A stretch of DNA of 41,972 bases from positions 1-41,972 of the forward strand of contig JASHSG010000036.1 of NCBI GenBank assembly GCA_030040935.1. The letters run 5' to 3'. Both the position numbers and the translations under genes were made by a program. This DNA comes from Acidobacteriaceae bacterium. Its GTDB lineage: Bacteria; Acidobacteriota; Terriglobia; Terriglobales; Acidobacteriaceae. Shown one piece after another: positions 14,701 through 37,381 of this stretch (its first letter is position 1; each line of letters starts with the position of its first letter). The notes beneath the pieces are model-generated. The model saw only the letters and a program-made list of their open reading frames with translations. It did not search any database and was not told the origin of the DNA.

Positions 14701-15270
14701 CACCACCGGCGTAGCTTTGTTCACCGTCACACTCGCCGAGCCCACCACCGCGTTGTAATCCGTGGTGTCGGCGGGCGTGAAGGTCACGCTCTCGCTCGGA
14801 GTTCCGGCGCCGGGGGCCGTGGCGGGTGTCGTAAAGGCAAAGGTGCCCGCCGTTGACGCTGTTCCGCCGCTCAGTGTCGAAGATGCCAGCGTCTGGCCGT
14901 AGGTGATCGCGCTCGCCGCAGGCCACGCCGACACCGTCGGCATCGCCTTGTTCACGATCAGGCTCACCGAACCCACCACCGCGTTGTAATTGGCCGCGTC
15001 GGCGGGAGTGAAGGTCACACTCTCGCTGGGGGTCCCAGCGCCAGGCGCCGTTGCGGGCGTCGTCCAGGCAAACGTGCCGGATACCGATGCCGTGCCGCCG
15101 CTGAGTGTGGACGAAGCCAGCGTCTGGCCATAGGTGATTGCGCTGGCCGAAGGCCAAACAGAAACCGTCGGCGTGGTGATGGAAGCTGTGCCTCCGCCGC
15201 CGCATGCAGTGACCCATAGCAATGCCAGAAAACTCGACCAAAGCGCCGCTCGCCTTCTCTTCACGCTCAT
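11779..15270 (-). CDS. Secreted/lipoprotein glycoside hydrolase family 44 (endoglucanase/xyloglucanase-type) with three N-terminal MBG-like Ig modules
   Basis: Lipobox LLWVTACGGGG; three 77-aa repeats (VSAWPAASAITYGQTLASSTLSGGTAS...); catalytic region LRWGGDDTSRYNYQNGWTNSASDYYFENGDG, WDLDNEPTWWDAVHRDVHP (acid/base NEP), KTSIDEYNFGG (nucleophile), as expected for GH44. Start set at MSVKRRR rather than the 15390 ORF start. Confidence 0.88.
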   Translation of the reverse strand: MSVKRRRAALWSSFLALLWVTACGGGGTASITTPTVSVWPSASAITYGQTLASSTLSGGTASVSGTFAWTTPATAPGAGTPSESVTFTPADAANYNAVVGSVSLIVNKAMPTVSAWPAASAITYGQTLASSTLSGGTASTAGTFAFTTPATAPGAGTPSESVTFTPADTTDYNAVVGSASVTVNKATPVVSAWPAASAITYGQTLASSTLSGGMASVPGAFAWTTSTIVPSGGTPGESVTFTPTDSTDYNIVTGSVSVTVNPATPTVTVTPGASSIAENQPLAVTVAVSGGAGAPTPTGSVTLSGGGYDTPSATVLVNGSAQINIPASSLATGTDELTGSYTPDAASSSTYTSATGLGSVTVNTPAAYILTVDSAGPSSGISITASPADNSAKTGGSTPFTLSYYGGTQIALSAALTDNTYSFVSWSGCASTSGSSGSVCNLTISANTTVTANYNQPGITSIIVTPTTATIGTQQQFTATVQGTGSYSDGVTWSVAAPTGSSLSPGDISSAGLYNTPYPAPATVTVTATSTMTGFTNVSGSATVTLSPPVTAAGPALAVDLGTPSNPNENPHTISPYVYGMNAYDLDPASEKVANPGILRWGGDDTSRYNYQNGWTNSASDYYFENGDGAAFMFPNSGTGENFTQFFPAVDAAGSAALGTVPVLGWVSNGVSGACSFTKTAYPGQESYNGSCGDGIDPDGTNGCSSSGGCDLYGSNTIAAITSTQEAPPSILSAPAPGSVTGTWADGTWPGAWVNSIVTGYGSGASGNGVAIWDLDNEPTWWDAVHRDVHPVAFTYDEVTNNGIGTALAIKTADPTALVSGPVIDYWWAYFYSKKDIESGWSSGPCYQPWSNPIDREAHGGVPMIEYYLQQFNSYSQQYGIRLLDYVDVHSYFAPQYPVNSGNSVAFTTAGDTQEQIERMNGTRVFWDSTYKDPDNFVAPAYGGYQQPNYITDPDYTSSCTVPAQAPQVIPMLQTWVANDYPGTKTSIDEYNFGGLESINGAVVQADILGIFGRQNLGMGAFWPTTNYSSQGPGNYAFAMYRNYDGNDSTFGNTYLYATSTASTGNGEGQLAVFGAQRTSDNAITVIVINKTYGSLTSSISVENFTSTAGTNAQVYQYSNANLTAIVQEAAVSVTPPAAGSTTSTIGNYTFPAQSITLFVVPD
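14475..15190 (-). repeat. Three tandem 231-bp MBG/Ig-like coding repeats in the GH44 gene
   Basis: The motif cgtctggc(c/c)(g/a)taggtgat recurs at 14659, 14890 and 15121 (exact 231-bp period). Confidence 0.85.
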
Positions 15271-15585
15271 TTTTGTCAGTCCTTCTCTCGTAATCGGCGC
15301 CCGGTTTTGCTTCTCTAGCCCCGGCCGAATTCTTTCCCCGGCCGCTCTGGCTGAATGCCGTACTGACGCGTCATCGCGCATGTGGCACAATCGGGCTTAA
15401 ACATGCTTGTCGTGCTTCTTGCCGAGGCTATGGATGTATAGTCGGACGGAATCCGGCTGGCATTCGTTAGAAATCAAGCCCAAGCCGATCTCGTTCCCGG
15501 TGCGCTTGCAAATACCTTGAATCAGCATCTTTTCGACGGCAGGCCCATTTTATGACTGGCTTGGTCGAACGCGAAACCATATGAG

Positions 15586-15835: not shown

Positions 15836-18800
15836 TTACTGTTCGACGAACACCGAGATCGGCACCGTCTGGGTAACTCCGCCGCCAGTGGCCGTAATCG
15901 TCACGACGGTGTTGGTGCCCTTCGGCGGGGCCGGCGGTCCGTTATAGGCGCCGCAGCCGGAAAGCTGAATGGCCCCGATCACACCCGCGATCAGCACCAG
16001 AGCCAACATCAGACCGCGCCGTTTCTTCCAGCCAAAGAAGCACAGAGCAATTGCGAACGTTGCTCCAGCCGGGAGGAACGGGTTGGAACGGTGTTGGAGA
16101 GACGCCGTGTTGCTGTCGGTGATCGTCAGGATAGTGCTGGTGGTCCCCGGCGGCGTTATGGTTGCGGGGTTGAAGACGAAGGTCACGCCTGACGGCGCAC
16201 CGCTGCTCGTGAAGGTGATGGGCACTGTGAATGCGGGGTTCGGCACGATCGTGATCGTGACGGTAGCAGAACTACCGGGCCCCACGGTTACTGAGGGTTG
16301 AGCCCCGATGGTGAAGTCAGGCGGTATCACCTGGAGGGTGTAGGTTGAGGCTCCACTCGCGCTGGGCGTATAACCCGCCAGCGTGGCAACAGCCGTGACG
16401 GTCACCGTGGCTGGATAGGTTTCAGCCGTGAGGGTAATGGCGCCCGCGTAAGTCTTGGCGGTTGAGCTGGTCAGCGGATTCGAGCCGTCCGTGGTGTAGA
16501 GGATGGCAGCGCCGGACGTAGAATCCGTGATGGTCGCGGTGTTCGACGTCCCGATGATCAGCGTGCTTCCGGTAGCTGGGCTGATTACCGGTGTTGCCAC
16601 TTGACCCAGCGGAGTTACAGCGACGGACCCCATGACCTGAGTCGCCGCCGCGTAATCGGCGTTGCCTGCCTGGTTAGCGTCGACCACGATGGTTCCCAGA
16701 CCGGTGGCGGTGAGAGTGCTACCGCTCAACGATCCGGCGCCCGCAGTGCTGGAGGCATCGAGTGTGAAGGTAACCGGGTTGCCGGACGCACCGCCGGTTG
16801 CCGACAGAGTTTCCGCCTTGCCGTAGCCGAGCGGAGTTGTCGGATTGAAGGTAATGGTCTGAGCGGCCTGGTTGACGACGATGGTACCGGTCACCGCGCC
16901 CGCAGCCAGGTAGTTAGCATTTCCAGCCTGACTCGCCGCGATCATGATTGTGCCGACTCCCGTAATGGTCAGGGTCGCGTTGTTCGTGCCGCTGAGGGTG
17001 CCAGGTCCGGACGTGAGAGAGAAGGTGACCGGATTGCCAGATCCACCACCGGACGCGCTCAGCGTGATCGGAGTGGTGCTGTAAGACACCGGTGAGGTCG
17101 GTTTGAAGGTGATCGTCTGCGGGGCCTGGGTGACGTCAATCGTGATCTGCACCTGAGGCGCGGCGGCATAGATCGGTGTGCCCGTCGTGGTGCCCGCCTG
17201 GTTGGCGTCGATGATCAGGGTACCCGCACCGGTGATGGTCAGGGTTGTCCCGTTGGTGCCGCTTACTGCCCCAACGCCCGCGGTACTTCCAGCGTCAACA
17301 CTGAACACGACCGGATTGCCGGAAGCGCCGCCGGTTGCCGACAACGTGTACGGGCCGCCGCCAAAGACGACCGGCGAAGTGATGCCGGCGAAGTCGGTGA
17401 TGGCCTGTGCGGTCGCGGCGCTGCCACTGACGGCGAAACCGCTGCCAGTGCTTCCGTTCACCGTGTCGTCCACGGTCAACGTGGATGAGACAGCGCCCGA
17501 AGCAGAGGCGGTGGGCGTGAAGGTGATGGTTGTCGGCAAGGATGAACCGCCGCCGAAGGTCAAGGCATCGCATCCGGCGGGCGCGGTCAAGGCGCCGGTG
17601 AACTCCGTGTCTCCGGAGGTGATGGTCAGCACCGGCGGATTGGTGCAGCCAAAGTCATCGAGCACCCAGACGTTGGTGGCCGTGGTTGGGGCCGCCGAAG
17701 AAGCCTGGCCAAGCACCGTCACCGAGCCAATGGCATTGAACGCCATCGTGTCGCTGCCGTTGTTGTAGCCGGCATAGTAGAAGTTGCCCTTGGTGTCAGA
17801 GGCGATCACCTTGGCGCCCGGTGCCGCGAGAGCAATCGGATTGGCCCATTCAAGGGTTCCTGAGTTGTTCAGGATTTCGTAGATGCCGGTGTACTGATCG
17901 GCAAAATACACATTGTTCTTTGAATCGATCGAAACCGCATCGATCTCGTTGTTGTACTTGCAAGGCGCCGCGGTGCAGACCGGTGTTTCGGTCTCGAGCA
18001 GCGTGGGAGCGGCCGCATAGCCCGTCGTCACCCCATTGAAGCCTGCGCTGGTGCTGGTTTTCAGCTCCTGCAGGTCAGAAGAGTGGCTGTAGGATGAGCC
18101 GCCTACGTCGATCAGGGAGTCGGTGAAGAATACATTGTCATTGGAATCGATGGAGATGGCGCCGACATAATACTGATCTGAAGCCGCATCGGAAGGAACC
18201 GTTTCGGCGTAGAGCAGGATCGGAGCCGTCGGCGTCGCACCGTAGAGGCAAGTCGGACCGCACTCAAGGATGGAGTACGGCTGGTTTGTAACGGTCGTCG
18301 AAGGCGACTCGTCGCTGGTGGTGATGAAGAGATTGCCATTCTTGTCGAAGTTAATGCCTGCGATACCAAAGGCAATCGTCCCATTGCCGACCACGATCTG
18401 GCAGATTCCCGCGTTGTCGGGCGCTACTCCATCGCCTTTGCAGGTGGGAGCGGCGGTGACTTGCGCGGCCGTGAAAGTGGGATAGGCTCCGCTGATAACG
18501 GGGAGCTTGATGATGGTATTGCCATATTCGTTTCCGGCGTAGGCATAGCCCGAGCTGTCAATGGCAACGGCGCCGACGCCGTTCAATGGCCCCAGATTCG
18601 CAACCACGGTGCCCGTGGAGGTGAACTGCTGGAGATCATTGCCATACGAGCTGCCTGCGAGGACGGCGCCCAACGTGGAGTTCAAGGCCATGGTGCCGCT
18701 ATCGGACGCATCCGCGCCGAAGACGCCGCCGCCCGTGAATGCCGCACCCCAGGTGTTCTGGCTAACCGAGGAGATGCTTCCGGCCTTGGCGATCACTGAA

Positions 18801-20263
18801 GACGAATCGCCCGACGCGGTGTCGTTCACCGTGAAACCGGTATAGGGCGTGACTCCGGTTGTCGGGGTGTAGGTGACAGTGACCGGGAACTCAGCAGCGG
18901 TTCCCAGAGATGATGAGCCGCAGGTACCCGCGCTGGCTGCAAATGGCGGATCCGGGACGGTGAACGTCAAAACGGCCGTGGAGCAAGGATCCGAGTTGTC
19001 CGCCACAAGAACCGTCGCCGTTGTTGCGGTTCCCGGGAACGACGGGCCGTCGAGCGATACATAGCCGACCGTGTCGGCGCCGCTGGTGTTAACTACGGTG
19101 GAGTAGCCCTCCACGTAGAAGTTGCCGTAGGTGTCTTTCTGCAGCAACTTCGTGCCCTGGTTGCTGATTGCGTAGATGCCTGCGGCGGTGGCTCCGGTTT
19201 TGCTGTTTGGGATACCGTAAATACCGGAGTTATCGAGGCCGATGTACACCTTGCCGTCCGATGGCGTTGGGTCGGCATATACCGCATCAATCTGATCGTC
19301 ATAGTTGCCGGGAGATGCGATAGTCAGGGTTTCGACCACTGTTGGCGCTGCCGTGAAACCAGTGGTTACGCCGTTGAATCCCGAGTTCGCAGTCGTGTCG
19401 ACGAGCATCTCGTTCAGGTGGGAGTCGATACTCTTGTTGCTGGTGTTGGCCAGAGCAGAATCGGTGAAGAAGAGGTTGCCCCAGGGGTCGATGGACATGC
19501 CGCCGACATAGAGCTGGCCGGTGGTACCCGGTGTGCTGGCGATGGGCTCCGCGTAGATAAGGACAGGGGCCGCGGTCGAGCCCGAAGCGGGATAAAGGCA
19601 CTTGGTCCCCGCCGCTTTGCACTCAAAAATTGAATAGGCCGGACCCACGCCGCCGGAATCACCCTGGTCGTCGGTGGCGAAGAACAGATCGTTGGCCGCG
19701 TCGAAGGTCATCGATTCCACACCGAAATAGCCGAGGGTCGATGATCCGAGTGATTTGATGATGCACTCTCCCGCGGTCTTGTCGGTGGCGGCCACGCCCG
19801 TGCAGGCGGGCAGCGCGCTGCCGCCAGAGCCGCTCGGATCGACGGTGTAGGTATAGGTTCCGTTGGTGTTCATCGGAATCTTTGCTACCACATTGGTAAA
19901 CTGGCCCGCCACATACAGAAAGTTATTGCTGTCAATGGCGACTGCGCCCGCGTTGGCGAAGGGTCCAACAACCGAGACCGCATAGCCGGGGCCGCTGAAC
20001 TGAATGATGTTGCCGCCATAGGTCTCGCTGGCCACGATAACGCCCATCGAGTTGATGCCCCAGGAGCCGCCCGCAGGAACGTCCCCTGCTAGAGCACCGC
20101 CATTCGGATAGGCCGTAAACCAAGTACTCTGGCTGACGATAATAGGGGCTGACGAGGCCGCGTTCGCGGCAGTCGCGAACAGGAAGATGGCCAGGATCGC
20201 GAGCAAAGCTACCACCGCGCCCCGCGACGCGTAACGCTCAAATTCCTTCAACTTCGTTTCCAT
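15836..20263 (-). CDS. Giant secreted NHL/beta-propeller and Ig-like repeat protein with C-terminal double-TM tail
   Basis: RBS GGAGGATTTGTG-ATG; METKLKEFERYASRG + hydrophobic signal; repeated AIDSNNFLYVAG / SIDPWGNLFFTDS / AVSIDSKNNVYFADQ propeller-like motifs; QTITFKPTSPVSYSTTPITLSASGG Ig repeats; tail FFGWKKRRGLMLALVLIAGVIGAIQLSGCG. Confidence 0.8.
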   Translation of the reverse strand: METKLKEFERYASRGAVVALLAILAIFLFATAANAASSAPIIVSQSTWFTAYPNGGALAGDVPAGGSWGINSMGVIVASETYGGNIIQFSGPGYAVSVVGPFANAGAVAIDSNNFLYVAGQFTNVVAKIPMNTNGTYTYTVDPSGSGGSALPACTGVAATDKTAGECIIKSLGSSTLGYFGVESMTFDAANDLFFATDDQGDSGGVGPAYSIFECKAAGTKCLYPASGSTAAPVLIYAEPIASTPGTTGQLYVGGMSIDPWGNLFFTDSALANTSNKSIDSHLNEMLVDTTANSGFNGVTTGFTAAPTVVETLTIASPGNYDDQIDAVYADPTPSDGKVYIGLDNSGIYGIPNSKTGATAAGIYAISNQGTKLLQKDTYGNFYVEGYSTVVNTSGADTVGYVSLDGPSFPGTATTATVLVADNSDPCSTAVLTFTVPDPPFAASAGTCGSSSLGTAAEFPVTVTYTPTTGVTPYTGFTVNDTASGDSSSVIAKAGSISSVSQNTWGAAFTGGGVFGADASDSGTMALNSTLGAVLAGSSYGNDLQQFTSTGTVVANLGPLNGVGAVAIDSSGYAYAGNEYGNTIIKLPVISGAYPTFTAAQVTAAPTCKGDGVAPDNAGICQIVVGNGTIAFGIAGINFDKNGNLFITTSDESPSTTVTNQPYSILECGPTCLYGATPTAPILLYAETVPSDAASDQYYVGAISIDSNDNVFFTDSLIDVGGSSYSHSSDLQELKTSTSAGFNGVTTGYAAAPTLLETETPVCTAAPCKYNNEIDAVSIDSKNNVYFADQYTGIYEILNNSGTLEWANPIALAAPGAKVIASDTKGNFYYAGYNNGSDTMAFNAIGSVTVLGQASSAAPTTATNVWVLDDFGCTNPPVLTITSGDTEFTGALTAPAGCDALTFGGGSSLPTTITFTPTASASGAVSSTLTVDDTVNGSTGSGFAVSGSAATAQAITDFAGITSPVVFGGGPYTLSATGGASGNPVVFSVDAGSTAGVGAVSGTNGTTLTITGAGTLIIDANQAGTTTGTPIYAAAPQVQITIDVTQAPQTITFKPTSPVSYSTTPITLSASGGGSGNPVTFSLTSGPGTLSGTNNATLTITGVGTIMIAASQAGNANYLAAGAVTGTIVVNQAAQTITFNPTTPLGYGKAETLSATGGASGNPVTFTLDASSTAGAGSLSGSTLTATGLGTIVVDANQAGNADYAAATQVMGSVAVTPLGQVATPVISPATGSTLIIGTSNTATITDSTSGAAILYTTDGSNPLTSSTAKTYAGAITLTAETYPATVTVTAVATLAGYTPSASGASTYTLQVIPPDFTIGAQPSVTVGPGSSATVTITIVPNPAFTVPITFTSSGAPSGVTFVFNPATITPPGTTSTILTITDSNTASLQHRSNPFLPAGATFAIALCFFGWKKRRGLMLALVLIAGVIGAIQLSGCGAYNGPPAPPKGTNTVVTITATGGGVTQTVPISVFVEQ

Positions 20264-20713
20264 CACAAATCCTCCGGTGAAATGTCGTTTCAGATATGGG
20301 GGAACAGCAGTAGCGTTCCGCACGTTGACTCGATTCCTTGTCCTTACTCCCGATCCTTCCAGTAATGAGAAGGTTTGTGGCCTGACCCGGTGGACTCGGG
20401 AGTCCCAATTCCCCTGGGCTGAATCTTCAGCAAAATGTCATTACGAATAAGCCCATCCTCCTTGCGCGCCCAGTTCCGCTCCGTGAAAGTGATACGAGGA
20501 AACTTCAAACCTCATTGATCGCCCTAACATCGGCCCGCCTCTCCCTCCGACGATTTGCGCCGCTTCCGGGCAAAGCACCGATCAGGCAAGTTGGGTTCGG
20601 AGGCGCGGTTACCCACGCAGAACCGTGTCTGTTACCGCTCCCAGAGCGAGTCCGAGTATATTCGCAGCACACACCGATATTGGCGACCCCAGAACTACTG
20701 AAAGAAATGCGGA

Positions 20714-25742: not shown

Positions 25743-28700
25743 ATGAGATTGTTCGTGGAGAGTGTCATGGTCATGGAGATGAGAACGTATTTTCGCCGGC
25801 TGGTCAGCGTTGGGGTCGGATTCCTGGGGGCGGCATTGATGTTGGGCGGGGCCGCGCGCGGACAGGCTCCGGCGGTATCCACGGGCTCGATTGTCAACAT
25901 CCCGTTCAGCACTACCTGGGGCCAGATCTATGTAATTCGCTTTTATAAGGGGAATGTTCTGGCGCTTGATTCAGGAGCCGGCGCCCTGTATCAGCTCTCC
26001 CCGGGCGCGACCTCATGGACAACGCTGTCTTCGGCCTCCAGCTCTTCACCGCTGGGCACCGGCGGCTACAACACAATCGGCATGGCGATCGATGCTGTGG
26101 GCAATCTCTATCTTGGGATTCGCTATCCGGTCGCTGCCGCCCCCAGTGCACTGTTCTGGCGCATTCCCTATGATTCCGCCAAGAACACCTGGGACGTCAC
26201 AACGAGCTACGCCTGGGGCAGCAACATTATCGACCCCAACAGTGGCGCAACAGTCGTCAGCGAGGGCGGCTCGGACTGGGTCGATTTCGTCAACAGCTCC
26301 AAGATGGACGGCAGCGGAACGCTCTACTGGGTTACGGAGAACCCCAACGAAATCTATACGGCTCCCGTCGATGCCTCAGGGAATGCGGACTTGCCCAATG
26401 GGGTGAACGCCAATTCCATCGTTACCGGTCTTGAGACCGATGGAGATTACCTGGCCGAAGACGTCAGCGGCAACATCTACCTGGTTGAAAACCATGCCGT
26501 AAAACCGGCAGCGCGCGTGCCGGGCATCTACTTCATTCCTGCCGGCACGTCGGGGATCGTGGGATCGGAGGGGAGCGCGGAGGCGCAGTTGATTCGAATC
26601 GATTCGAGCAGCAATCCGGTGGTGTATGCCGGCATAACGCTCGATGCTTACGGGAACATTTATGTGCCTTCGGAGGTGAACTCCAGCTATGGCGAGACAG
26701 TGGCGGGCATCTGGAAGATTCCGAACGAATGCGGGAGCGCGGCTGCGGTAAACAGCTCCTGCCTCCCCAATTTCAACGACATTTCCCTTTACGCTCCGGT
26801 TTCAAGCAACAACCCCGTATCCATCGATTCGCGCGGATACGTGTGGATCCCCACCTATCAGGATTGGAGCCCCAACGGGTCCGGACCCTATCCGAATCTG
26901 TATGCGATCGCTGTATGGGCTCCGGGATCCATCAATCTCGGCGCCGCGCCGACGGGCGCTGCGGGACCGGCGGGCAAGTTATTTATCGACTTCAACCAAC
27001 CCATCACTCCCGGCGGCATTCAATTTTCGCAACCGGGAACTGGCTCGGACTTCACTATCGCAACAACGGACCCCACTCCGCCAACGACTGCGCCGGCAAC
27101 TTCCCCGGCCTGCACGTCGGGAACCGCATATTCCGTCCAGAACATATGCCAGGTTTGGGTGGCGCTTGATGCGCGCAAACCCGGGGCCATCTCTGGCCAG
27201 CTCATGTTGCTGAACTCGAGCAATTCGCCCGTCGCTGGCAGCACTGTTTATCTGAGCGGCATCGGACAAGGCTCGGAGGCATCTTTGCTCTCTTTAGCGG
27301 CGCAGAGCACGGTTGCAGCCGGTCTTGATACGCCGGCGCAGGTGGCTGCCGATGCGGTGGGAGACACGTGGGTCGCCGACGCGGGCCTGCATCAGGTGCT
27401 GAAATTCAGCGCCGGCTCCACCACTGCGGTAGGCGCCCCCGTTGGGAAAAATCTCGTTGCGCCCACCGGAGTTGCCGTGGACGGATCTGGCGATTTGTAC
27501 ATCGCGGACTCGGGAAAGGTGATCGAGATTCCGTGGGTCAATGGAGCTCTCGACACTGCCGGTCAAACCACATTGGCCACAGGATTCGGAAGCGATCTGA
27601 ACCTGGCTGCAGACGGCGTCGGCAATGTTTATGTGGCTGATCCGAAGAATTCCCGTGTCGTCAAGATTCCCAGCCCCGAAACCGCGCAGTTGTACCCCGA
27701 CTTTGAAACCATACCCGCCACTTCCCTTTCCACGACCGTCACGATGGGCTCCGGATTCAGCGCACCTTCGGCAATTGCGACCGACAACTCCGGCGACTTG
27801 TTCGTTGCCGATGGCGCGAATCTCTATGAGATCACGCCGTGGGATGTCCAGACGGAGCTGCTGAACTCCCTGACCGGGCCGGTAACTGGCCTGGCAGTGG
27901 ATGCTTCAGGATCGGTGGACGTGGCACAGAGCGGCGGAGTTCTGCATATCCCCGCCATTGCAGGGGTTCTCAGCTTCAACAGCGCAAGTTCGCTGGATGA
28001 TTCTGTCATTGCCGCGCCCAATGGCGTGGCTCTCGATCAAGAGGGCAATCTGTACGTCACCGACATGACGAGCGGTACCCCGAATCTCTTCGAATTGAGC
28101 GCGAATGGGTTCGTGAATTTCGGTGTTGGCCTCACTCCCACCGTCCTTGCCGAGGAGGACGTGCCGGTGTTCAATATCGGCAATGAGAATCTGACGGTGA
28201 CCGGGACTCCGACCTTCAGTGGTCCCGATGCCAGCGATTTTTCTGTGACCACCCCGAGCGGTGGAACCCCTTGCGACACGACGGGCGCGACGCCCGTGGC
28301 CGCCGGCAATGCATGCACCATCGGAGCCGGCTTTACGCCGCCGCCGCCACCGGCGGGCGATATTTTGCCGATCACCTATTCCGGCGATACGATGACGATC
28401 CCAACCAATGCGGGCAACGTTGCGGGCGGCGATGTGTCTGCCGGACTGGAAGGCAGCGCGCTGGCCGGGCTTGAGGCGACCCAGGCGACCGTCTCACTGA
28501 ACCCCGCGACCACAACCTTCCCGGGCAGCACTGCCGTGACGGTGACAATTACTCCGGAGCCAGGCGGCGGCATAGATTATCCCACCAACGTGCCGTCGGG
28601 AACCGTGACTCTGACCCTGACCAGTACAGTCGCGGGCAGCACGCAGCCCCCGCTGGTTGAAACGGCTCAGGCCGCCGGGAATGACACCGGAACAACGGCG

Positions 28701-29726
28701 ACATTTACGCTGACCGGTATTCTTGGGGGCACCTACAACGTAACGGCAGCGTACGGGGGAAATCTCGCTCAATTGTTCCAGAAGAGCCAGAGCTCACCCG
28801 TACCCCTTACCGTTTCGCCGGCAGCGCCCACCATCTCGCTGCCCGAGCCCACGGGTGTCCAGCCGAACAGCCAGAACGGCGTTTACTATGTGCTGCTCCA
28901 CGGCGATACGACCCTTACCGCGAATGTTGCGTCCACGCTGGGAACGCCGACCGGCTTGGTCACATTTATGAACGGAACTACGGCAGTGGGTACCGCGGCG
29001 CCGGATGCAAACGGGAATGCGAGTCTCAACCTGGGCACCCTGGTAGCGGGCAACTACACCGTCACAGCCGTCTACAGTGGCGATCAGAACTTCGCTTCAG
29101 TGACCTCGCAAAGCGTCTCCTTCCAGGTGATCCCGGCGAGCGTATTGATCTGGGCCAACCCGACTTCGGTTTCGACCAAGGGAGGGACGCCGGTGTCGAG
29201 CACTCTCAGCCTGGAGTCGCTGGTCGGATTCACGGCCACCAACGGGGCCAACATCACATGCGACAACAGCACGATGCCGAACGATGCCGAATGCACGTTC
29301 AGTGTTCCTCAGCCTGACATTTGCGCGCCTACCGGTCAGGCGGGCAACACATGTTCCGGCATCACAACGACGGTCGTAACCATCAGCACCAACATTCCGG
29401 TGAATATCGGGAGCACGCAGCAGAACAGGTCTCGTACCTCTCCTCTTGTTCTGGCCGGCATTTTCGGACTTGGCCTGCTGGGACTGGGGCTGCGCAGAAG
29501 AGCGACCTTTAATCGATATCTCTTCGGCGCCATCAGCCTTGTGTTGTTCCTTACCGGTGCGGTCTTGGGCGTGAGCAGCTGCACCAACTCGGGTTACACC
29601 AAGACGCCGGCAGTTCCAACCTATACCACCCCGACCGGCACGTATAACGTGAGCATTATCGTCACCAATCCAGGGAACGGCACGCAAGAGTCATTGCCCT
29701 TCACCCTGGGGGTGACGATCCAATAG
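25743..29726 (+). CDS. Giant secreted NHL-repeat/Ig-like protein with C-terminal double-TM tail (paralogue of the 29857-34185 product)
   Basis: Signal peptide region (LVSVGVGFLGAALMLGGAARGQA); NHL motifs GVAVDGSGDLYIADSGKVIEIP, LAADGVGNVYVADPKNSRVVKIP; Ig_3-like VTFMNGTTAVGTAAPDANGNASLNLGTLVAGNYTVTAVYSGDQNF; tail GLGLLGLGLRRR...SSC. The exact start among nearby ATGs is uncertain. Confidence 0.85.
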   Translation: MRLFVESVMVMEMRTYFRRLVSVGVGFLGAALMLGGAARGQAPAVSTGSIVNIPFSTTWGQIYVIRFYKGNVLALDSGAGALYQLSPGATSWTTLSSASSSSPLGTGGYNTIGMAIDAVGNLYLGIRYPVAAAPSALFWRIPYDSAKNTWDVTTSYAWGSNIIDPNSGATVVSEGGSDWVDFVNSSKMDGSGTLYWVTENPNEIYTAPVDASGNADLPNGVNANSIVTGLETDGDYLAEDVSGNIYLVENHAVKPAARVPGIYFIPAGTSGIVGSEGSAEAQLIRIDSSSNPVVYAGITLDAYGNIYVPSEVNSSYGETVAGIWKIPNECGSAAAVNSSCLPNFNDISLYAPVSSNNPVSIDSRGYVWIPTYQDWSPNGSGPYPNLYAIAVWAPGSINLGAAPTGAAGPAGKLFIDFNQPITPGGIQFSQPGTGSDFTIATTDPTPPTTAPATSPACTSGTAYSVQNICQVWVALDARKPGAISGQLMLLNSSNSPVAGSTVYLSGIGQGSEASLLSLAAQSTVAAGLDTPAQVAADAVGDTWVADAGLHQVLKFSAGSTTAVGAPVGKNLVAPTGVAVDGSGDLYIADSGKVIEIPWVNGALDTAGQTTLATGFGSDLNLAADGVGNVYVADPKNSRVVKIPSPETAQLYPDFETIPATSLSTTVTMGSGFSAPSAIATDNSGDLFVADGANLYEITPWDVQTELLNSLTGPVTGLAVDASGSVDVAQSGGVLHIPAIAGVLSFNSASSLDDSVIAAPNGVALDQEGNLYVTDMTSGTPNLFELSANGFVNFGVGLTPTVLAEEDVPVFNIGNENLTVTGTPTFSGPDASDFSVTTPSGGTPCDTTGATPVAAGNACTIGAGFTPPPPPAGDILPITYSGDTMTIPTNAGNVAGGDVSAGLEGSALAGLEATQATVSLNPATTTFPGSTAVTVTITPEPGGGIDYPTNVPSGTVTLTLTSTVAGSTQPPLVETAQAAGNDTGTTATFTLTGILGGTYNVTAAYGGNLAQLFQKSQSSPVPLTVSPAAPTISLPEPTGVQPNSQNGVYYVLLHGDTTLTANVASTLGTPTGLVTFMNGTTAVGTAAPDANGNASLNLGTLVAGNYTVTAVYSGDQNFASVTSQSVSFQVIPASVLIWANPTSVSTKGGTPVSSTLSLESLVGFTATNGANITCDNSTMPNDAECTFSVPQPDICAPTGQAGNTCSGITTTVVTISTNIPVNIGSTQQNRSRTSPLVLAGIFGLGLLGLGLRRRATFNRYLFGAISLVLFLTGAVLGVSSCTNSGYTKTPAVPTYTTPTGTYNVSIIVTNPGNGTQESLPFTLGVTIQ

Positions 29727-29776: not shown

Positions 29777-29856
29777 AAGCGCAGGAGATGCAGGTTTTCA
29801 TGCCGCGGTTTTACACAACGAGCAAGGTTGGTATGAGTCTTCCAGGGAGAAATATC

Positions 29857-32800
29857 ATGTTGAACAAACCATTCATTTCGCTGCGCCGGTTCTCGGAATG
29901 TGCGTTGACGATCTTGTTCCTCGCCGGAACCCTGTGCGCGGCGGCTCATGCGCAGGCTACGCCGACCATCGCGAGTTTCGCAACCGGGGTGAATCATAAT
30001 ACGGCTACGAAGCCCATCAGCCCGGGAAACATCGCGAACATCGCGACAGACAGTTTCGGCGACGTGCTCGCTGTGGATGATTCGAATGGTGCACTTTACG
30101 AGTTCCCCTTTGGCGGCGGAAATGCCAAAGTCCTTGTTCCCACCGGCGGTCTGGCCGGCGGCTCGGGCACGATTGTCACCCCGGGAATTGCCATCGATTC
30201 GGATAACAATCTCTATATTGAGGGCGGTACGTGCGTATTGATGTATCCCTACGACAGCGGGACCGCGACGTGGGATTTATTGGCGGCGCTTTCTAAAACC
30301 AACACATCCGCGGCCGTTTGCGGCGCGAGCGCGCCAACCTTCACCAATTTCGGAACCGGCGTGGTGGCTCTCGGTTTGGCGATCGGCAACACCAGCACTC
30401 CGAACGTCCTGGCTGGAACCACCTCCTCGACAGGCAACAGCATCGTGAGCATCCCCGTCACAGGAGCGTGGACGGCTCCAGTCGCAGGAGCGCCAACTGC
30501 CATCATCTCGGGCATGAAAGCGCCGGCAATCTCGGTTGCCGAGGATACAACCGGCAATATCTATTTCGTTGAGAGCGGTACCGGAGCTCTGCCAGGAGTT
30601 TACAAAATCCCCGCCGGACAAACAGGACTCACTTCGGATTCAGGCCTGGCGCGCATCGACCCCAGCTTGCCCAACGCCGACGGCGTGGCCGTGGACAGCC
30701 AGGGCAATATTTACTTCAGCGACAACCAGGAAGGTGTTTTCCTTCTTCCCGAGGGTGCCACGTCGAGCAGTTCCACTCTTCTGCTGACTTCGGTGACGGC
30801 GCAGGGTTCCGTGGCATCGTACGGTAACGGTTTCTTGTTCGTTCCGACGCAGCAAACGCTTTGGAATGGCGTGTCCGACGTTGCGATCGTCACCTTCGAC
30901 GCGGCAAATTTCGGTTCCGAGGCCATTGCGCCCGCCTCGCCCGTGCAAGGACAGGTAGTCTTCAGCTTCAATAGTTCCAACAGCATCACTCCGGGCACGA
31001 TTGAGGTGCTGGAGTCAGGCGACGCCAACCCCAATTTTGCGGCGGGGAGTGGCAGTAAAAGCCCGGCCTGCGTGACCATGGCGCAGGCTCCATCTACGGG
31101 CTCTCCCTTGCCCTACACGGCCCTGGAGTCCTGCACTGTCACCGTGTCCTTCTCTCCCAGCGCGACGGCCGGCGTCTCAGCCACTCTGGTCATGTTAGAC
31201 ACCAAAGGGAACCTGATCGCCTCCATTCCTCTGAATGGGATTGGGATAGGTGGAGCGGTTCAGGTGATGCCGCCGGCGCAGACGGCGATTGGCGGCGGTC
31301 TCATTTCGCCCCAGCAGATCGCCGTGGATTCCGGCGGCAACGTTTACGTGGCTGACTCTGGCCAGGGTGCCGTGGTGCATGTCTATCCGGGCGCCACAGC
31401 GACTTTCGTCGGCAAAAATTTGAAAGCGCCGACGGGAGTGGCCGTGGATGGAGCCGGCGATGTCTTCATCGCCGACAGCGGCAATGTCTACGAAGTGCCG
31501 GAAACCGCAAGCGGCTTGAATGCTGCTGGTCAAGTGACGCTGGCGACCGGTCTGGGCGCGCAAGTCGCGCTGGCTGCCGATGGTCTCGGCGATCTCTATG
31601 TGTCCGATGAGGACAACCAAAAGGTCTATGAGCTTGAGAATTTCAGCGCGGGCACAAATACCGGGCTGCCTCCGATACTCAACTCCGAAGACATAACCCT
31701 GACAGGAACCGCATTCAGCGGCGCGCCCTCTGCGATCGCGGTGGATTCGGCCAACAATCTCTATGTTGCGAACGGCGGCAGCGTGTACGAAGTCACTCCG
31801 ACCGGAACTCAGACCGCGGTTCTAAGCGGCCTGACCGGCGTGACAGACCTGGCGGTCGATCCCTCTGGTTCGATCTACATCACGGCGACGGGCGGAACAG
31901 TCCGTATTCCCAACGTGAGTGGGACGCTCAAGACAGCCAATGAGACGGCGGTGGCCAGCGGGGTGACCAAACCGACTTCCGTGGCCATGGATCTTCTGGG
32001 GAATGTCTACGTAACCGACGGGACTGCCCTGAACGTGAACGTGACCGAAGCCAGTGCGTCTCTCAACTTTGGTACGCTGACCGCCGACCCAACCACCAAG
32101 CCGGCGCCGCCGGGATCGTCCTCGTCGCAGGTCGTCACGCTTCTGAACTATGGGAATGCGCCCTTGGCGGTGACAGGCTACACAAGTACACCCGACGTCT
32201 TCGAGCCCGACTATTCGGAGACATCCGATACCTGTTCCGGCAATTCGATCGCGGTGAACTCGACCTGCACTGCAACCATCACCTTCAGTCCTGGTATCGG
32301 CGACGGCGGCGCGCTGACGGGAGAAGTTCTGGTTCAGGGTAACGTGGGCAATTCGCCCGTGGGAGTGAACGGTACCGGCGTGGCCCCAACGTTATCCAAT
32401 ACCGCGACCGCGATGGTTGCAAGCAGCAAAGGCACCATTGAAGGAGTTCCCGTCATGGTCACGGTTACTCCCACCGTGGCCGGCAATCCAACACCCACAG
32501 GAACGGTGACCCTTTCGATCGTTCCCGGCAGCAATGTTCCGCTTACCGATCCGACGAATTTTCAATATGAGATGAACGCGCAGGATCAGGTAGTGTATCC
32601 GCTCCAGGTGACGGAGCCGTACTCCGTTACGATGAGCCTGGTTGGCACAACAGGCGCGGCCCAGTTCGATCCAACGTTCTTCCCGATCGGAGCTTACACA
32701 TTTACGGCCAGGTACAACGGCGATCCGACCTATATCTACGAGCACTCCAGCAACGCGGCGGGGGTCTCAATCGCTACGGCGGTGCCGGTGACGTTGACGC

Positions 32801-34185
32801 AGCCTGCGGTCGCATCGATTACGGCCACTCAACCGCTTTATACGCTCCCCTGCACATCGGGATCCGGCGCCACGTGCACGACTGCATATAACTACGGGCA
32901 GCCTTCGAATAACCCTCCAGGCTATCTGGTACTGGCAGGGGGAAATGGCGCCCAGCAGCCGTACGACGGCTCAATAAATTCGTGGGGTTATATCTATCCT
33001 CTAACGGTCGCGTCTGACAGTGGCGATCCCATGATTGGCACAGCCGTGTACAGTAACGGAGCCCAAACCGGCTGGAACTACGGGGCTGTGAACTATGTCA
33101 CGACAAACGGGCAGTCTGCTTGCGGCAACGGCGCTGGAAGCAAATCCATTGTCAATCTGGACGATACCGGATCAGCGCCGCTTGATGTATCTTGCTTTGC
33201 CATCAATACGAACAACAATACGATCCCCGATATCATGACCTATTATTCGGTCACCCCCGAATATAGCGGAACTTATAACGATCTGGTGAGCGTCAATCCC
33301 AACTATGAGAATTCGAGCAATGGGCAAGCGGTTGGTTTCTGGGCGCTCAGCCACTCCATGGTGCAGATCGGCGCCAGCCCCGCTTCGGTCAATGTTGCCG
33401 CAGGATCCGCAGCATCGACGACGCTCACGATCAGCTCGATCCTGGGATACGGATATGCGGGGCGCACCTCGAACGGAGGCCCCGACAATAACTATTCGCT
33501 GCCACTGAGCCTGACGTGTCAGGGCTTGCCGGCATACGCCACGTGTTCCTTCAGCTATCCCGCGCCGAACCCTGCTGATCCGCAGGTGGCCGGCGCCGCA
33601 ACGCAATCGCCCTACCCGCCGATTCCGCCGAACCTGGTCGCGCTCGAATGCGCCCCGGGCAGCAGCCAGCAATACTGCGCCGTCGATGTAGGTCCTGTTG
33701 CCGGCGCCGTCAATGGATACGGGCTCTTCCATTCAGGGAACCAGAGTACGCCTTGCACTGCGGTCGACGGATGTCTCGGGCCGGGCACCGTGGTAATGAC
33801 CATTAACACCAATGTGTCTGTGGGAACCAGCACCTCAAAGCTCGCAAAAGACAAGGAAGGCGTCGCTTTCGCGGCCTTGTTCGGGCTGGGCCTGCTGGGG
33901 CTCACATTCCGCCGCAGAGTCTCGCGGATGAAAGGTTTGCTGGTGGTACTGTGTGTGCTGCTCTTTGGCGGCGCTTTCGCCACCCTTACCGCATGCAGCA
34001 CAACACAGCTGGGCACGGAATCTACAGCCGCGGTGACACCCGCCGGAAGTTACTGGGTCACCGTAACGGCCAAGCAGGCCGGCAGCATTCTGATTACCAC
34101 CACAAACGGCGGAATCGTGGTGGTCCAGGGCAACGGAGACCAGATGTCCCTGCCGTACACAGTGAATGTGACAGTGAGTCAGTAG
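29857..34185 (+). CDS. Giant secreted NHL-repeat/Ig-like protein with C-terminal double-TM tail
   Basis: Start at MLNKPFISLRRFSECALTILFLAGTLCAAAHAQ signal peptide; IAVDSGGNVYVADSGQGAVVHVYPG, GVAVDGAGDVFIADSGNVYEVP NHL motifs; choice-of-anchor-like LNFGTLTADPTTKPAPPGSSSSQVVTLLNYGNAPLAVTG; tail FGLGLLGLTFRRR...TACS. Confidence 0.86.
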   Translation: MLNKPFISLRRFSECALTILFLAGTLCAAAHAQATPTIASFATGVNHNTATKPISPGNIANIATDSFGDVLAVDDSNGALYEFPFGGGNAKVLVPTGGLAGGSGTIVTPGIAIDSDNNLYIEGGTCVLMYPYDSGTATWDLLAALSKTNTSAAVCGASAPTFTNFGTGVVALGLAIGNTSTPNVLAGTTSSTGNSIVSIPVTGAWTAPVAGAPTAIISGMKAPAISVAEDTTGNIYFVESGTGALPGVYKIPAGQTGLTSDSGLARIDPSLPNADGVAVDSQGNIYFSDNQEGVFLLPEGATSSSSTLLLTSVTAQGSVASYGNGFLFVPTQQTLWNGVSDVAIVTFDAANFGSEAIAPASPVQGQVVFSFNSSNSITPGTIEVLESGDANPNFAAGSGSKSPACVTMAQAPSTGSPLPYTALESCTVTVSFSPSATAGVSATLVMLDTKGNLIASIPLNGIGIGGAVQVMPPAQTAIGGGLISPQQIAVDSGGNVYVADSGQGAVVHVYPGATATFVGKNLKAPTGVAVDGAGDVFIADSGNVYEVPETASGLNAAGQVTLATGLGAQVALAADGLGDLYVSDEDNQKVYELENFSAGTNTGLPPILNSEDITLTGTAFSGAPSAIAVDSANNLYVANGGSVYEVTPTGTQTAVLSGLTGVTDLAVDPSGSIYITATGGTVRIPNVSGTLKTANETAVASGVTKPTSVAMDLLGNVYVTDGTALNVNVTEASASLNFGTLTADPTTKPAPPGSSSSQVVTLLNYGNAPLAVTGYTSTPDVFEPDYSETSDTCSGNSIAVNSTCTATITFSPGIGDGGALTGEVLVQGNVGNSPVGVNGTGVAPTLSNTATAMVASSKGTIEGVPVMVTVTPTVAGNPTPTGTVTLSIVPGSNVPLTDPTNFQYEMNAQDQVVYPLQVTEPYSVTMSLVGTTGAAQFDPTFFPIGAYTFTARYNGDPTYIYEHSSNAAGVSIATAVPVTLTQPAVASITATQPLYTLPCTSGSGATCTTAYNYGQPSNNPPGYLVLAGGNGAQQPYDGSINSWGYIYPLTVASDSGDPMIGTAVYSNGAQTGWNYGAVNYVTTNGQSACGNGAGSKSIVNLDDTGSAPLDVSCFAINTNNNTIPDIMTYYSVTPEYSGTYNDLVSVNPNYENSSNGQAVGFWALSHSMVQIGASPASVNVAAGSAASTTLTISSILGYGYAGRTSNGGPDNNYSLPLSLTCQGLPAYATCSFSYPAPNPADPQVAGAATQSPYPPIPPNLVALECAPGSSQQYCAVDVGPVAGAVNGYGLFHSGNQSTPCTAVDGCLGPGTVVMTINTNVSVGTSTSKLAKDKEGVAFAALFGLGLLGLTFRRRVSRMKGLLVVLCVLLFGGAFATLTACSTTQLGTESTAAVTPAGSYWVTVTAKQAGSILITTTNGGIVVVQGNGDQMSLPYTVNVTVSQ

Positions 34186-34588: not shown

Positions 34589-37381
34589 ATGATGCGATTT
34601 CGAATGGCTTGGTGCCTGATGTGTGCGGCCCTGGTGCTTGCAGGATGCGGCGGCGGGAATTCAAACACCACAACGACCAAGACCACCCCCAGTGTCTCGG
34701 CATGGCCGACGGCGAGCTCGATTACCTACGGCCAGACGCTGGCATCGTCGACATTGACCGGCGGCACGGCTTCAGTAGCCGGCGCATTTGCTTTCACGAC
34801 CCCCACAACTGCTCCGGGCGCAGGATCCCCCAGCGAGAGCGTGACCTTTACGCCTACCGACACGACTGACTACACCACTGTCACGGGAAGTGTGACCGTG
34901 ACGGTGAACAAGGCGACGCCAACCGTTTCGGCATGGCCGACGGCGAGCGCGATCACTTACGGCCAAACGCTGGCGGCATCGACGCTGAGCGGCGGAACAG
35001 CGTCTACGGCCGGCGCCTTTGCCTTTACCACGCCCGCCACGGCCCCGGGCGCGGGAACTCCCAGCGAGAGCGTAACCTTTACGCCAACCGACTCGGCCGA
35101 TTACAACTCCATGGCGGGCAATGTGACCGTGACGGTGAATAAAGCGACGCCGACGGTTTCGGCATGGCCCACGGCGAGCGCGATCACCTCCGGCCAGACG
35201 CTGGCTTCGTCGACACTGACCGGAGGCACGGCATCGGTGCCGGGTGCTTTCTCCTGGACGACGCCGACCACGACCCCCGCTACGGGGACCGACAGCGAGA
35301 GCGTGACCTTCACGCCTACCGACTCGACCGACTACAACACGGTCGTTGGCATGGTGAGTGTGACGGTGAACACGAATACTCCGACAGTGACCGCGGTTAC
35401 GCCTGCCAGCGCGAGCACAGGCGCCGCGGTGACAGCCGCCCTGACCGCAACCTTCAGCGAGGCGATGAATGCGTCGACCATCAGCACCGCGACATTCCTC
35501 CTGCAGGCCCAGGGAAGCTCGACCGGCGTCGCGGGCGCAGTCAGCTACAGCGCCGGCACGATGACGGCCACGTTTACGCCGACGGCTAATCTCGCTTACA
35601 GCACGATGTACACGGCGACCATCACCATCGGCGCTCAGAACTCAACGGGAACAGCGCTGGCCGCAAATTACGTGTGGAGCTTTACCACGGAGGCTGCGCC
35701 GGCTCCCACTGTTACGGCCACCGTGCCGGCGAGCGGCGCAACAGGCGTGAATGTGGCCAACGCTCTGACGGCTACCTTCAGCCAGCCGATGAACTCGTCG
35801 ACGATTACCTCCTCTACGTTTACGGTGGCCACAACCAGCGGCAACACACCTGTTTCAGGGACGGTAACTTACAACAGCGGCACTTCGACGGCAACCTTTA
35901 CACCGTCGGCCCTGGCCGCCAGCACCTCCTACACGGCAACCATCACCACGGGCGCAACAAGCTCCGCCGGGGCCGCGCTTGCCGCCAACTACGTTTGGAC
36001 CTTCACGACCGGCGTGCCCGCGAACCAGGTCACCGTGGACTTTGGAACGACCTATCAGACTATCCAGGGGTTCGGCGGATCGACGGCGTGGCTTGGACAA
36101 ATGCCCGCGGCCGTGGCCAAGGCCCTTTTCAGCCCAACCAGCGGACTCGGCCTGAGCATCCTGCGCGTGCGCATCGATCCCACAGGCACCGCATCGGGCG
36201 GAGGTAATAGCGGGGATCCATTTGAAACCGGCGAGTGGGACTATGAGGCGGCCAACGGTGCGGAAGCCGTCGCCAACAACCCCAACGCCGTTGTCTTTGC
36301 GACTCCCTGGACCCCGCCGGCCATGTGGAAGCTCGCCGGCACCAGTACGACCGTCAGCGGTGCAACGTTTAACGAGGCGCTCTACAGCGGCGGCTGCAGC
36401 CCTTCCGGTGTTGACGAAAGCGGGACTGCCGGAGGCTACTGCGGCGGATACCTCGATCCCAACCACTACGCCGACTATGCCAACTATCTCGAGGATTTCG
36501 TCAGCTTTTTCAATACGACGAATGGTTTCAATCTCTACGCCATCTCGATGCAGAACGAGCCAGAGGAGAATGTCGACTATGAGTCCTGCGTCTGGACTCC
36601 CGCCCAGATGGATGCCTGGGTAGCCGGCAACGCCTCCACCATCACTTCGGACCCATACTCCACGAAACTGATTATGCCGGAGTCGGACGACTTCAACCCC
36701 GTGGATGCCTCAACGACTTTGAGCGACGTGAATGCGGAGGGCAAAGTCAGCATTATTGGCGGCCACATTTATGAGACATTGTTTGGCGGCTCGATTGCGC
36801 CCTACTCCATCCCTGCGGGCGATACGCCAAAAGCGCTCTGGATGACCGAATTTGGCCCGTTGAGCAGCGCGGCGCTCACATGGAGCCAGGCAGTGACGAC
36901 CTATGCCCCGACGATTCATAACTCCCTGGTCACCGGCCAATATAACGCTTATGTCTGGTGGGGAATTTTCGGCGAATCCACGGGCAGTTGCGCAACCGCC
37001 GCCGGCACTTGCGGCCTGGTTGACGACAGCGGAACACTTCAGGTACCGGGCTACATGATCGGCCAGTACTCGAAGTTCATTGCGCCTGGCTCGGTGCGCG
37101 TGTCGGCGACTGCAATCCCAGTCGCTGGAGTTTATGTTTCGGCGTTCATGAGCAGCTCGCCGTCGCATTACACGATCGTGGCCATCAACACCAATTCGAG
37201 CGCGGAGAGCCTGGCCTTCACCCTGGATGTCAACGGCAACCCAACCTCGAGCGTGACCTCATTGACGCCAACGGAGAGCACGTCGAGCGCGGGGCTGGCA
37301 GCGCAACCGGTGGTCACCGTGTCGGGCGGGCTGTTCGACTACACGCTTCCCGCGCAGAGCATCGTCACGTTCTATCAATAG
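34589..37381 (+). CDS. Lipoprotein glycoside hydrolase family 30 with three MBG-like Ig modules and two Big_5-like domains
   Basis: Lipobox ALVLAGCGGG; VSAWPTASAITYGQTLASSTLTGG repeats; VTAVTPASASTGAAVTAALTATFSEAMNASTIS (Big_5-like); catalytic YQTIQGFGGSTAWLGQMP, ISMQNEPEENVDYESCVWTP (acid/base), ALWMTEFGPL (nucleophile). Confidence 0.9.
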   Translation: MMRFRMAWCLMCAALVLAGCGGGNSNTTTTKTTPSVSAWPTASSITYGQTLASSTLTGGTASVAGAFAFTTPTTAPGAGSPSESVTFTPTDTTDYTTVTGSVTVTVNKATPTVSAWPTASAITYGQTLAASTLSGGTASTAGAFAFTTPATAPGAGTPSESVTFTPTDSADYNSMAGNVTVTVNKATPTVSAWPTASAITSGQTLASSTLTGGTASVPGAFSWTTPTTTPATGTDSESVTFTPTDSTDYNTVVGMVSVTVNTNTPTVTAVTPASASTGAAVTAALTATFSEAMNASTISTATFLLQAQGSSTGVAGAVSYSAGTMTATFTPTANLAYSTMYTATITIGAQNSTGTALAANYVWSFTTEAAPAPTVTATVPASGATGVNVANALTATFSQPMNSSTITSSTFTVATTSGNTPVSGTVTYNSGTSTATFTPSALAASTSYTATITTGATSSAGAALAANYVWTFTTGVPANQVTVDFGTTYQTIQGFGGSTAWLGQMPAAVAKALFSPTSGLGLSILRVRIDPTGTASGGGNSGDPFETGEWDYEAANGAEAVANNPNAVVFATPWTPPAMWKLAGTSTTVSGATFNEALYSGGCSPSGVDESGTAGGYCGGYLDPNHYADYANYLEDFVSFFNTTNGFNLYAISMQNEPEENVDYESCVWTPAQMDAWVAGNASTITSDPYSTKLIMPESDDFNPVDASTTLSDVNAEGKVSIIGGHIYETLFGGSIAPYSIPAGDTPKALWMTEFGPLSSAALTWSQAVTTYAPTIHNSLVTGQYNAYVWWGIFGESTGSCATAAGTCGLVDDSGTLQVPGYMIGQYSKFIAPGSVRVSATAIPVAGVYVSAFMSSSPSHYTIVAINTNSSAESLAFTLDVNGNPTSSVTSLTPTESTSSAGLAAQPVVTVSGGLFDYTLPAQSIVTFYQ
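34690..35385 (+). repeat. Three tandem 231-bp MBG/Ig-like coding repeats in the GH30 gene
   Basis: tcggcatggcc(g/c)acggcgag recurs at 34697, 34928 and 35159 (exact 231-bp period). Confidence 0.87.

Follow-up and report, generated by a model that had tools for sequence, protein, structure and literature searches.

Our analysis indicates that the C-terminal tail of the protein encoded at 29857-34185 of the window (the whole stretch of Acidobacteriaceae DNA analysed here, 41,972 nucleotides) is a member of an existing domain family and not a tail of a new kind. The family is NCBIfam NF058595, 'invert_tail', described there as a 'lipo-invert putative C-terminal anchoring domain'. Moreover, sequence profiles and computed models give good support to the view that the transmembrane hairpin of this tail is an insertion in one Ig-like domain, placed in the loop before its last two strands. 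We propose, at a probability of roughly 60%, that the arginine loop, the second helix (TM2) and the lipobox act as an internal lipoprotein signal for the ordinary Lgt/LspA pathway, and that the lipidated last strands tether the protein. The Ig-insertion reading is new here; the name of NF058595 states only a putative role.

The features on which this proposal rests are collected in Table 1. The order described in the initial annotation, a first helix (TM1), an arginine cluster, TM2, a lipobox-like LTAC and a beta tail, is borne out by the translation, with 62 residues after the cysteine where about 75 had been counted. TM2 corresponds to the h-region of the internal lipoprotein-type signal, and its last residues form the lipobox LTA. 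An alternative in-frame ATG at 29788 would give a product of 1465 residues. The NF058595 profile is the same domain as the tail, which passes its curated cut-off of 37 bits: positions 2-107 of the 113 in the profile are matched shortly before the stop codon, with 39.9 bits for the tail slice, 42.6 bits in the genome search and 36.1 bits for the whole protein, the last just below the cut-off. The match thus lies at the C-terminus of what, judging its signal peptide by eye, is a secreted protein. With the cysteine at residue 1380 of 1442, the tail does not have the N-terminal location of a lipoprotein signal; it may act like one, yet the protein is not an ordinary N-terminal lipoprotein.

Table 1. 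Coordinates of the tail-bearing proteins of the window and of the parts of their tails
Feature	Residues	Nucleotides	Strand	Basis or remark
CDS, NHL/SBBP beta-propeller protein with tail	1442 aa	29857-34185	+	Pfam NHL and SBBP matches
N-terminal Sec-type signal peptide, MLNKPFISLRRFSECALTILFLAGTLCAAAHA ahead of QA		29857-29952	+	judged by eye
Terminal Ig-like domain, first half (pre-hairpin strands and a long low-confidence insert)		33361-33807	+	AlphaFold, HMM
NF058595 match		33787-34104	+	above family cut-off
TM1, GVAFAALFGLGLLGLTF, putative stop-transfer helix	1335-1351	33859-33909	+	translation; AlphaFold helix 176-190
Basic loop RRRVSR, predicted cytoplasmic; also n-region of the internal signal	1352-1357	33910-33927	+	
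TM2, MKGLLVVLCVLLFGGAFATLTA	1358-1379	33928-33993	+	AlphaFold helix 201-217
Invariant Cys, predicted lipidation site	1380	33994-33996	+	alignment and all fetched and held-out tails
Outer tail	62 residues	33997-34182	+	AlphaFold strands, weak HMM match
Second tail protein		25743-29726	+	family match 29364-29714; Cys 29580-29582
Third tail protein		15836-20323	-	family match 15845-16144
Third tail protein, Ig first half		~16315-16115	-	
Third tail protein, hairpin		~16069-15962	-	
Third tail protein, Cys		15955-15953	-	
Third tail protein, Ig second half		~15913-15845	-	

The three tails that had been noticed in the window are real, all of them scoring above the family cut-off, and the source genome has at least 11 places that do so, the two further window proteins included. 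The initial annotation had allowed for a tail with no family beyond these proteins; we found the opposite, a large family, with a match in every one of the 95 aligned tails. Among 297 genomes sampled across the phylum, the tail is present in all 32 of its own family and in only 10 of the 265 others. It also recurs in nearly all the genomes sampled family-wide from this widespread environmental family (58 of 60, over 59 genera), with 1-29 matches in each. Since the same architecture is seen again in 57 of the 59 genera sampled within the family, and since the only invariant column in an alignment of 95 sequences is the cysteine, the tail is not a chance arrangement. The tails look like C-terminal anchors for large surface proteins. 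Our literature search, which left out most subscription journals, found no publication that uses the name NF058595 or 'lipo-invert'.

The initial annotation missed that its beta tail belongs to an Ig-like domain which begins ahead of TM1: the strands before the hairpin make up the first half, and those after the cysteine the second. Between the cysteine and these last strands lies a flexible linker. When an HMM was made from 13 uninterrupted Ig repeats and nothing else, it matched the half before TM1 in 90 of 97 tails (median positions 2-67) and the half after the cysteine, again in 90 of 97 (median positions 66-95), while shuffled halves gave 2 matches in 291. Profiles of the two tail halves, for their part, found contiguous pairs in uninterrupted upstream domains of the same proteins, and in the uninterrupted copies the sequence runs straight across the insertion site. 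A protein of 2655 residues (locus L133) carries a run of uninterrupted Ig repeats, the last of which has the hairpin at the equivalent place. In ten genomes outside the profile the matches fell into two classes, nearly all of them ending at 76-95 (uninterrupted) or at 120-128 (with the hairpin); those of the uninterrupted class mostly stop between model positions 80 and 91, the typical continuation being ...TPAGTYTLTVTG.... The 29857-34185 protein itself matches the uninterrupted-Ig HMM weakly, at residues 1174-1238 (E 0.0087) and, for the second half, at residues 1374-1416 against HMM positions 47-90 (E 0.25).

Computed models, in which strand pairing was judged from DSSP and from Foldseek alignments, agree with the profiles. 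For the slice of the 29857-34185 protein that starts at 33331, AlphaFold places strands at 11-75 and 152-159, followed by two helices (176-190 and 201-217) and two further strands (239-249 and 276-283), with a mean pLDDT of 65.6 and low confidence in places. The last two strands, at about 34045-34077 and 34156-34179, are those of the outer tail, and with them the Ig-like domain is complete. Foldseek aligned it with the S-layer protein SbsC over 277 columns (probability 0.99, E 0.03). The model of the 15836 tail has a mean pLDDT of 81.9, with strands at 51-117 (pLDDT about 95) and 185-207 (about 87-96) and helices at 133-144 and 150-168 between the two groups of strands. Its Foldseek alignment with 2r39, a FixG-related protein of 109 residues which we take to be Ig-like, spans 174 columns with a TM-score of 0.64 by target. 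Since 174 columns are set against only 109 residues, the hairpin is a gap in an otherwise complete fold. Profiles and models together indicate that the two flanks make up one Ig fold. The first half of the domain also contains two cysteines nine residues apart (numbered 87 and 96 in the alignment's first sequence), which perhaps form a disulphide; they are kept in 67 and 64 of 76 tails, and are not found in the 15836 protein.

The strongest signal in the tail is the cysteine that closes TM2. None of the 102 tails fetched, which come from many genera, lacks it, and its column is the most informative of all, with 5.7 bits where the columns of TM1 and TM2 average about 1 bit. The residue before it (-1), scored in 99 tails, is G in 69 of them, A in 19 and S in 10, with a single I, so that G, A or S stands there in 98 of 99 while making up 32% of TM2 residues overall; the sole isoleucine, judged by eye, comes from a mis-assigned TM1 cysteine in locus L005. 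About 7 of the 99 have an unusual residue at -3, a point against the lipoprotein-signal reading. In the loop region K and R number 469 and D and E only 19, a positive-inside pattern. The tails have the features of a lipoprotein (type II) signal, namely basic residues, a hydrophobic stretch and a lipobox with its cysteine. Because the tails had originally been found by a model that contains the cysteine, we built a Cys-blind profile that ends at the basic loop, and searched it in ten genomes that gave no loci to it. All 47 matches that reach the loop continue with a hydrophobic stretch, G/A/S and Cys, and none of the 47 ends after the arginine cluster. In E. coli, by the Lol rule, an Asp after the cysteine marks a lipoprotein for retention in the inner membrane. 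By that rule the tails would carry no such mark, since the residue following the cysteine is never Asp in those fetched.

How could a signal so close to the C-terminus anchor a large protein? A basic region, a hydrophobic helix and a lipobox, so oriented, are the substrate form of Lgt and LspA, and in its topology the tail does not depart from an ordinary lipoprotein signal. The body would be exported through the N-terminal signal peptide; by known topology rules TM1 would then run from outside to inside, the arginine loop would lie in the cytoplasm, and TM2 would return from inside to outside. We infer that the tail is both lipidated and cleaved: Lgt would attach diacylglycerol to the cysteine, and the single-copy LspA would cut before it. 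The lipidated strand peptide would stay in the Ig fold, where non-covalent strand complementation would hold the body to the lipid anchor, and the TM1-TM2 remnant would also hold the large body. Of the two suggestions in the initial annotation, a hairpin with both ends outside and a lipobox in the second helix finds support in the positive-inside charges, the invariant cysteine and the signal-peptide-like N-terminus, while sorting by an exosortase or rhombosortase does not, as discussed below.

A further step can be imagined. After LspA has produced a short lipopeptide, a second cut, before TM1, would free the body, and the resulting two-chain complex could reach the outer membrane as a lipoprotein anchored at its C-terminus. 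We put this forward tentatively and consider it doubtful. After the LspA cut the body would still be bound to the inner membrane by TM1 and TM2, so that a lipid anchor is not obviously needed unless the chain is cut again. If such a self-complementing anchor does form, it would be a main way in which the Acidobacteriaceae tether large secreted repeat proteins. More generally, should the proposed steps of lipidation and cleavage hold, no dedicated sortase would be needed to give a protein a C-terminal lipid anchor: the ordinary lipoprotein machinery could do so from a signal nested in a beta-sandwich, and the protein would be kept together by its own fold.

A simpler possibility is that TM1 and TM2 do no more than hold the last Ig domain to the inner membrane, both ends of the hairpin lying outside, the cysteine remaining unlipidated and the chain uncut. 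A hairpin by itself suffices as an anchor, the positive-inside charges fit one, and LspA is not expanded in the family. However, a plain hairpin has no need for an invariant cysteine, whose column rises so far above the helices around it, and the near-universal G, A or S at -1 is the lipobox rule. We regard this explanation as unlikely, though it would be no great surprise. Rather improbable, in our estimate, is that Lgt modifies the cysteine while LspA does not cut, leaving a whole chain held by hairpin and lipid together. On ordinary prolipoproteins Lgt acts before LspA, and this order, like the architecture of the tail, would permit such an outcome; on the other hand, LspA usually needs G, A or S at -1 in order to cut, and the tails have retained such a residue.

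The initial annotation had compared the first half of the tail with exosortase- and rhombosortase-type sorting signals, which would place the processing at TM1. TM1 followed by arginines does look similar to such signals, and exosortase (PF09721) has matches in 26 of the 32 sampled genomes of the family. The likeness is nevertheless generic, a hydrophobic helix and then Arg, and TM1 has no strong sorting motif, [AM][LMF]W[LIF] occurring in a subgroup of only about 12 of 99 tails. The initial annotation had also suggested looking for co-occurrence with the enzymes, and neither of them tracks the family. No exosortase match was found in the remaining 6 of the 32 genomes, which bear 6-14 tails each (G007, G022, G171, G217, G241 and G273, with 14, 6, 8, 12, 14 and 12); outside the family 81 genomes have an exosortase, and only 5 of those 81 have the tail. 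With its presence so decoupled from the tails, we reject exosortase as the partner. Rhombosortase (TIGR03902) is likewise rejected, as none of 60 genomes has a match above the cut-off, and matches below it are as strong in control genomes. Neither do the matches of the Cys-blind profile stop at the arginine cluster, and we consider a sorting signal of this kind very improbable. In one genome (locus L135, G249:C5:253500-260500) a tail gene is followed, about 0.5 kb further downstream, by a weak exosortase-like gene of 355 aa, which might speak for such a signal; an exosortase-like neighbour as a rule was not seen beyond this locus. A dedicated LspA paralogue is rejected as well, a single LspA being present in 30 of the 32 own-family genomes, and no protease was found for an additional cut before TM1. 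Nothing here thus points to a dedicated enzyme, and the most economical candidate is Lgt/LspA, the universal pathway. Finally, we reject as practically negligible an artefact in which a gene ending in TM1 and Arg is read through into, or fused with, a downstream small lipoprotein gene: a free-standing frame resembling such a gene does occur in the source genome (L010, below), but the frame is open, without stops, in every listed match and across many genera, and the part after the cysteine completes an Ig domain begun before TM1.

The tail can be set beside three known kinds of signal. With an ordinary Lgt/LspA signal it shares the basic n-region, the h-region, the lipobox with G/A/S at -1, the invariant cysteine and the orientation in the membrane; it differs in lying near the C-terminus, after a first transmembrane helix and inside an Ig-like domain, which would as a rule leave a mature lipoprotein part of only about 34-70 residues. 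In MYXO-CTERM tails, processed by myxosortase, the order is Cys, TM and Arg at the end; a defined lipobox is reported to be absent, and lipidation of the cysteine is predicted (PMC11980579). The likeness here is a C-terminal anchoring region with an invariant cysteine, a transmembrane helix, an arginine cluster and predicted lipidation. Order and topology, however, are inverted (TM, Arg, TM, lipobox-Cys, Ig strands), so that the cysteine does not precede the helix and Arg does not come last. In the PEP-CTERM/exosortase and GlyGly-CTERM/rhombosortase systems the signal is the last part of the protein and goes together with a protease dedicated to it (PMC1569441, PMC3237569). They too have a hydrophobic helix and then Arg near the C-terminus, whereas in the present tail TM2, the cysteine and 62 residues follow the arginines, many-tail genomes can be without an exosortase match, and rhombosortase does not reach its cut-off in the genomes searched. 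In the same literature as above we found neither a split-Ig lipid anchor nor an Ig fold with a lipoprotein signal inside it, and no paper there that brings PEP-CTERM and exosortase together with acidobacteria.

Natural variants of the tail bear on the role of the last strands. In locus L148 as many as 351 residues, mostly further Ig-like repeats, follow the cysteine, and in L179 about one additional domain lies between the cysteine and the final strands; in both, the protein still closes with the final Ig strands despite the inserted domains. In L014, judged by eye, the hairpin is displaced by one strand towards the C-terminus, and the tail lacks that strand. Such a pattern would be expected if the interrupted domain depended on the final strands for its completion. 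Locus L186 also has one or more whole domains inserted between the lipobox cysteine and the last residues. Two short frames were seen besides. That of L010 (G000:C127:7900-8082), free-standing and 66 aa long, consists of the TM2-lipobox-Cys-tail part alone and is a small lipoprotein in its own right or else the remnant of a gene; in L118 (G233:C1:898611-898868) the tail sits in a frame of 135 aa whose upstream part is not Ig-like, probably a frame-shifted gene.

The surroundings of the gene are partly conserved. A query with the full protein found one close relative, at locus L105 in an Acidobacteriaceae metagenome-assembled genome, where homologues of the 25743 protein, of the 29857-34185 protein (from the ATG at 29788) and of the glycoside hydrolase at 34589 follow in the same order. 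This hydrolase (34589-37381) is XynC-like by NCBIfam, under the cut-off. Its product has an ordinary N-terminal lipoprotein signal (ALVLAGC), and this signal matches the TM2-Cys part of the NF058595 profile (E 0.003). A GH44 glycoside hydrolase (Pfam PF12891) is encoded at 11779-15390 on the reverse strand, close to EpsB by NCBIfam and below the cut-off of that family.
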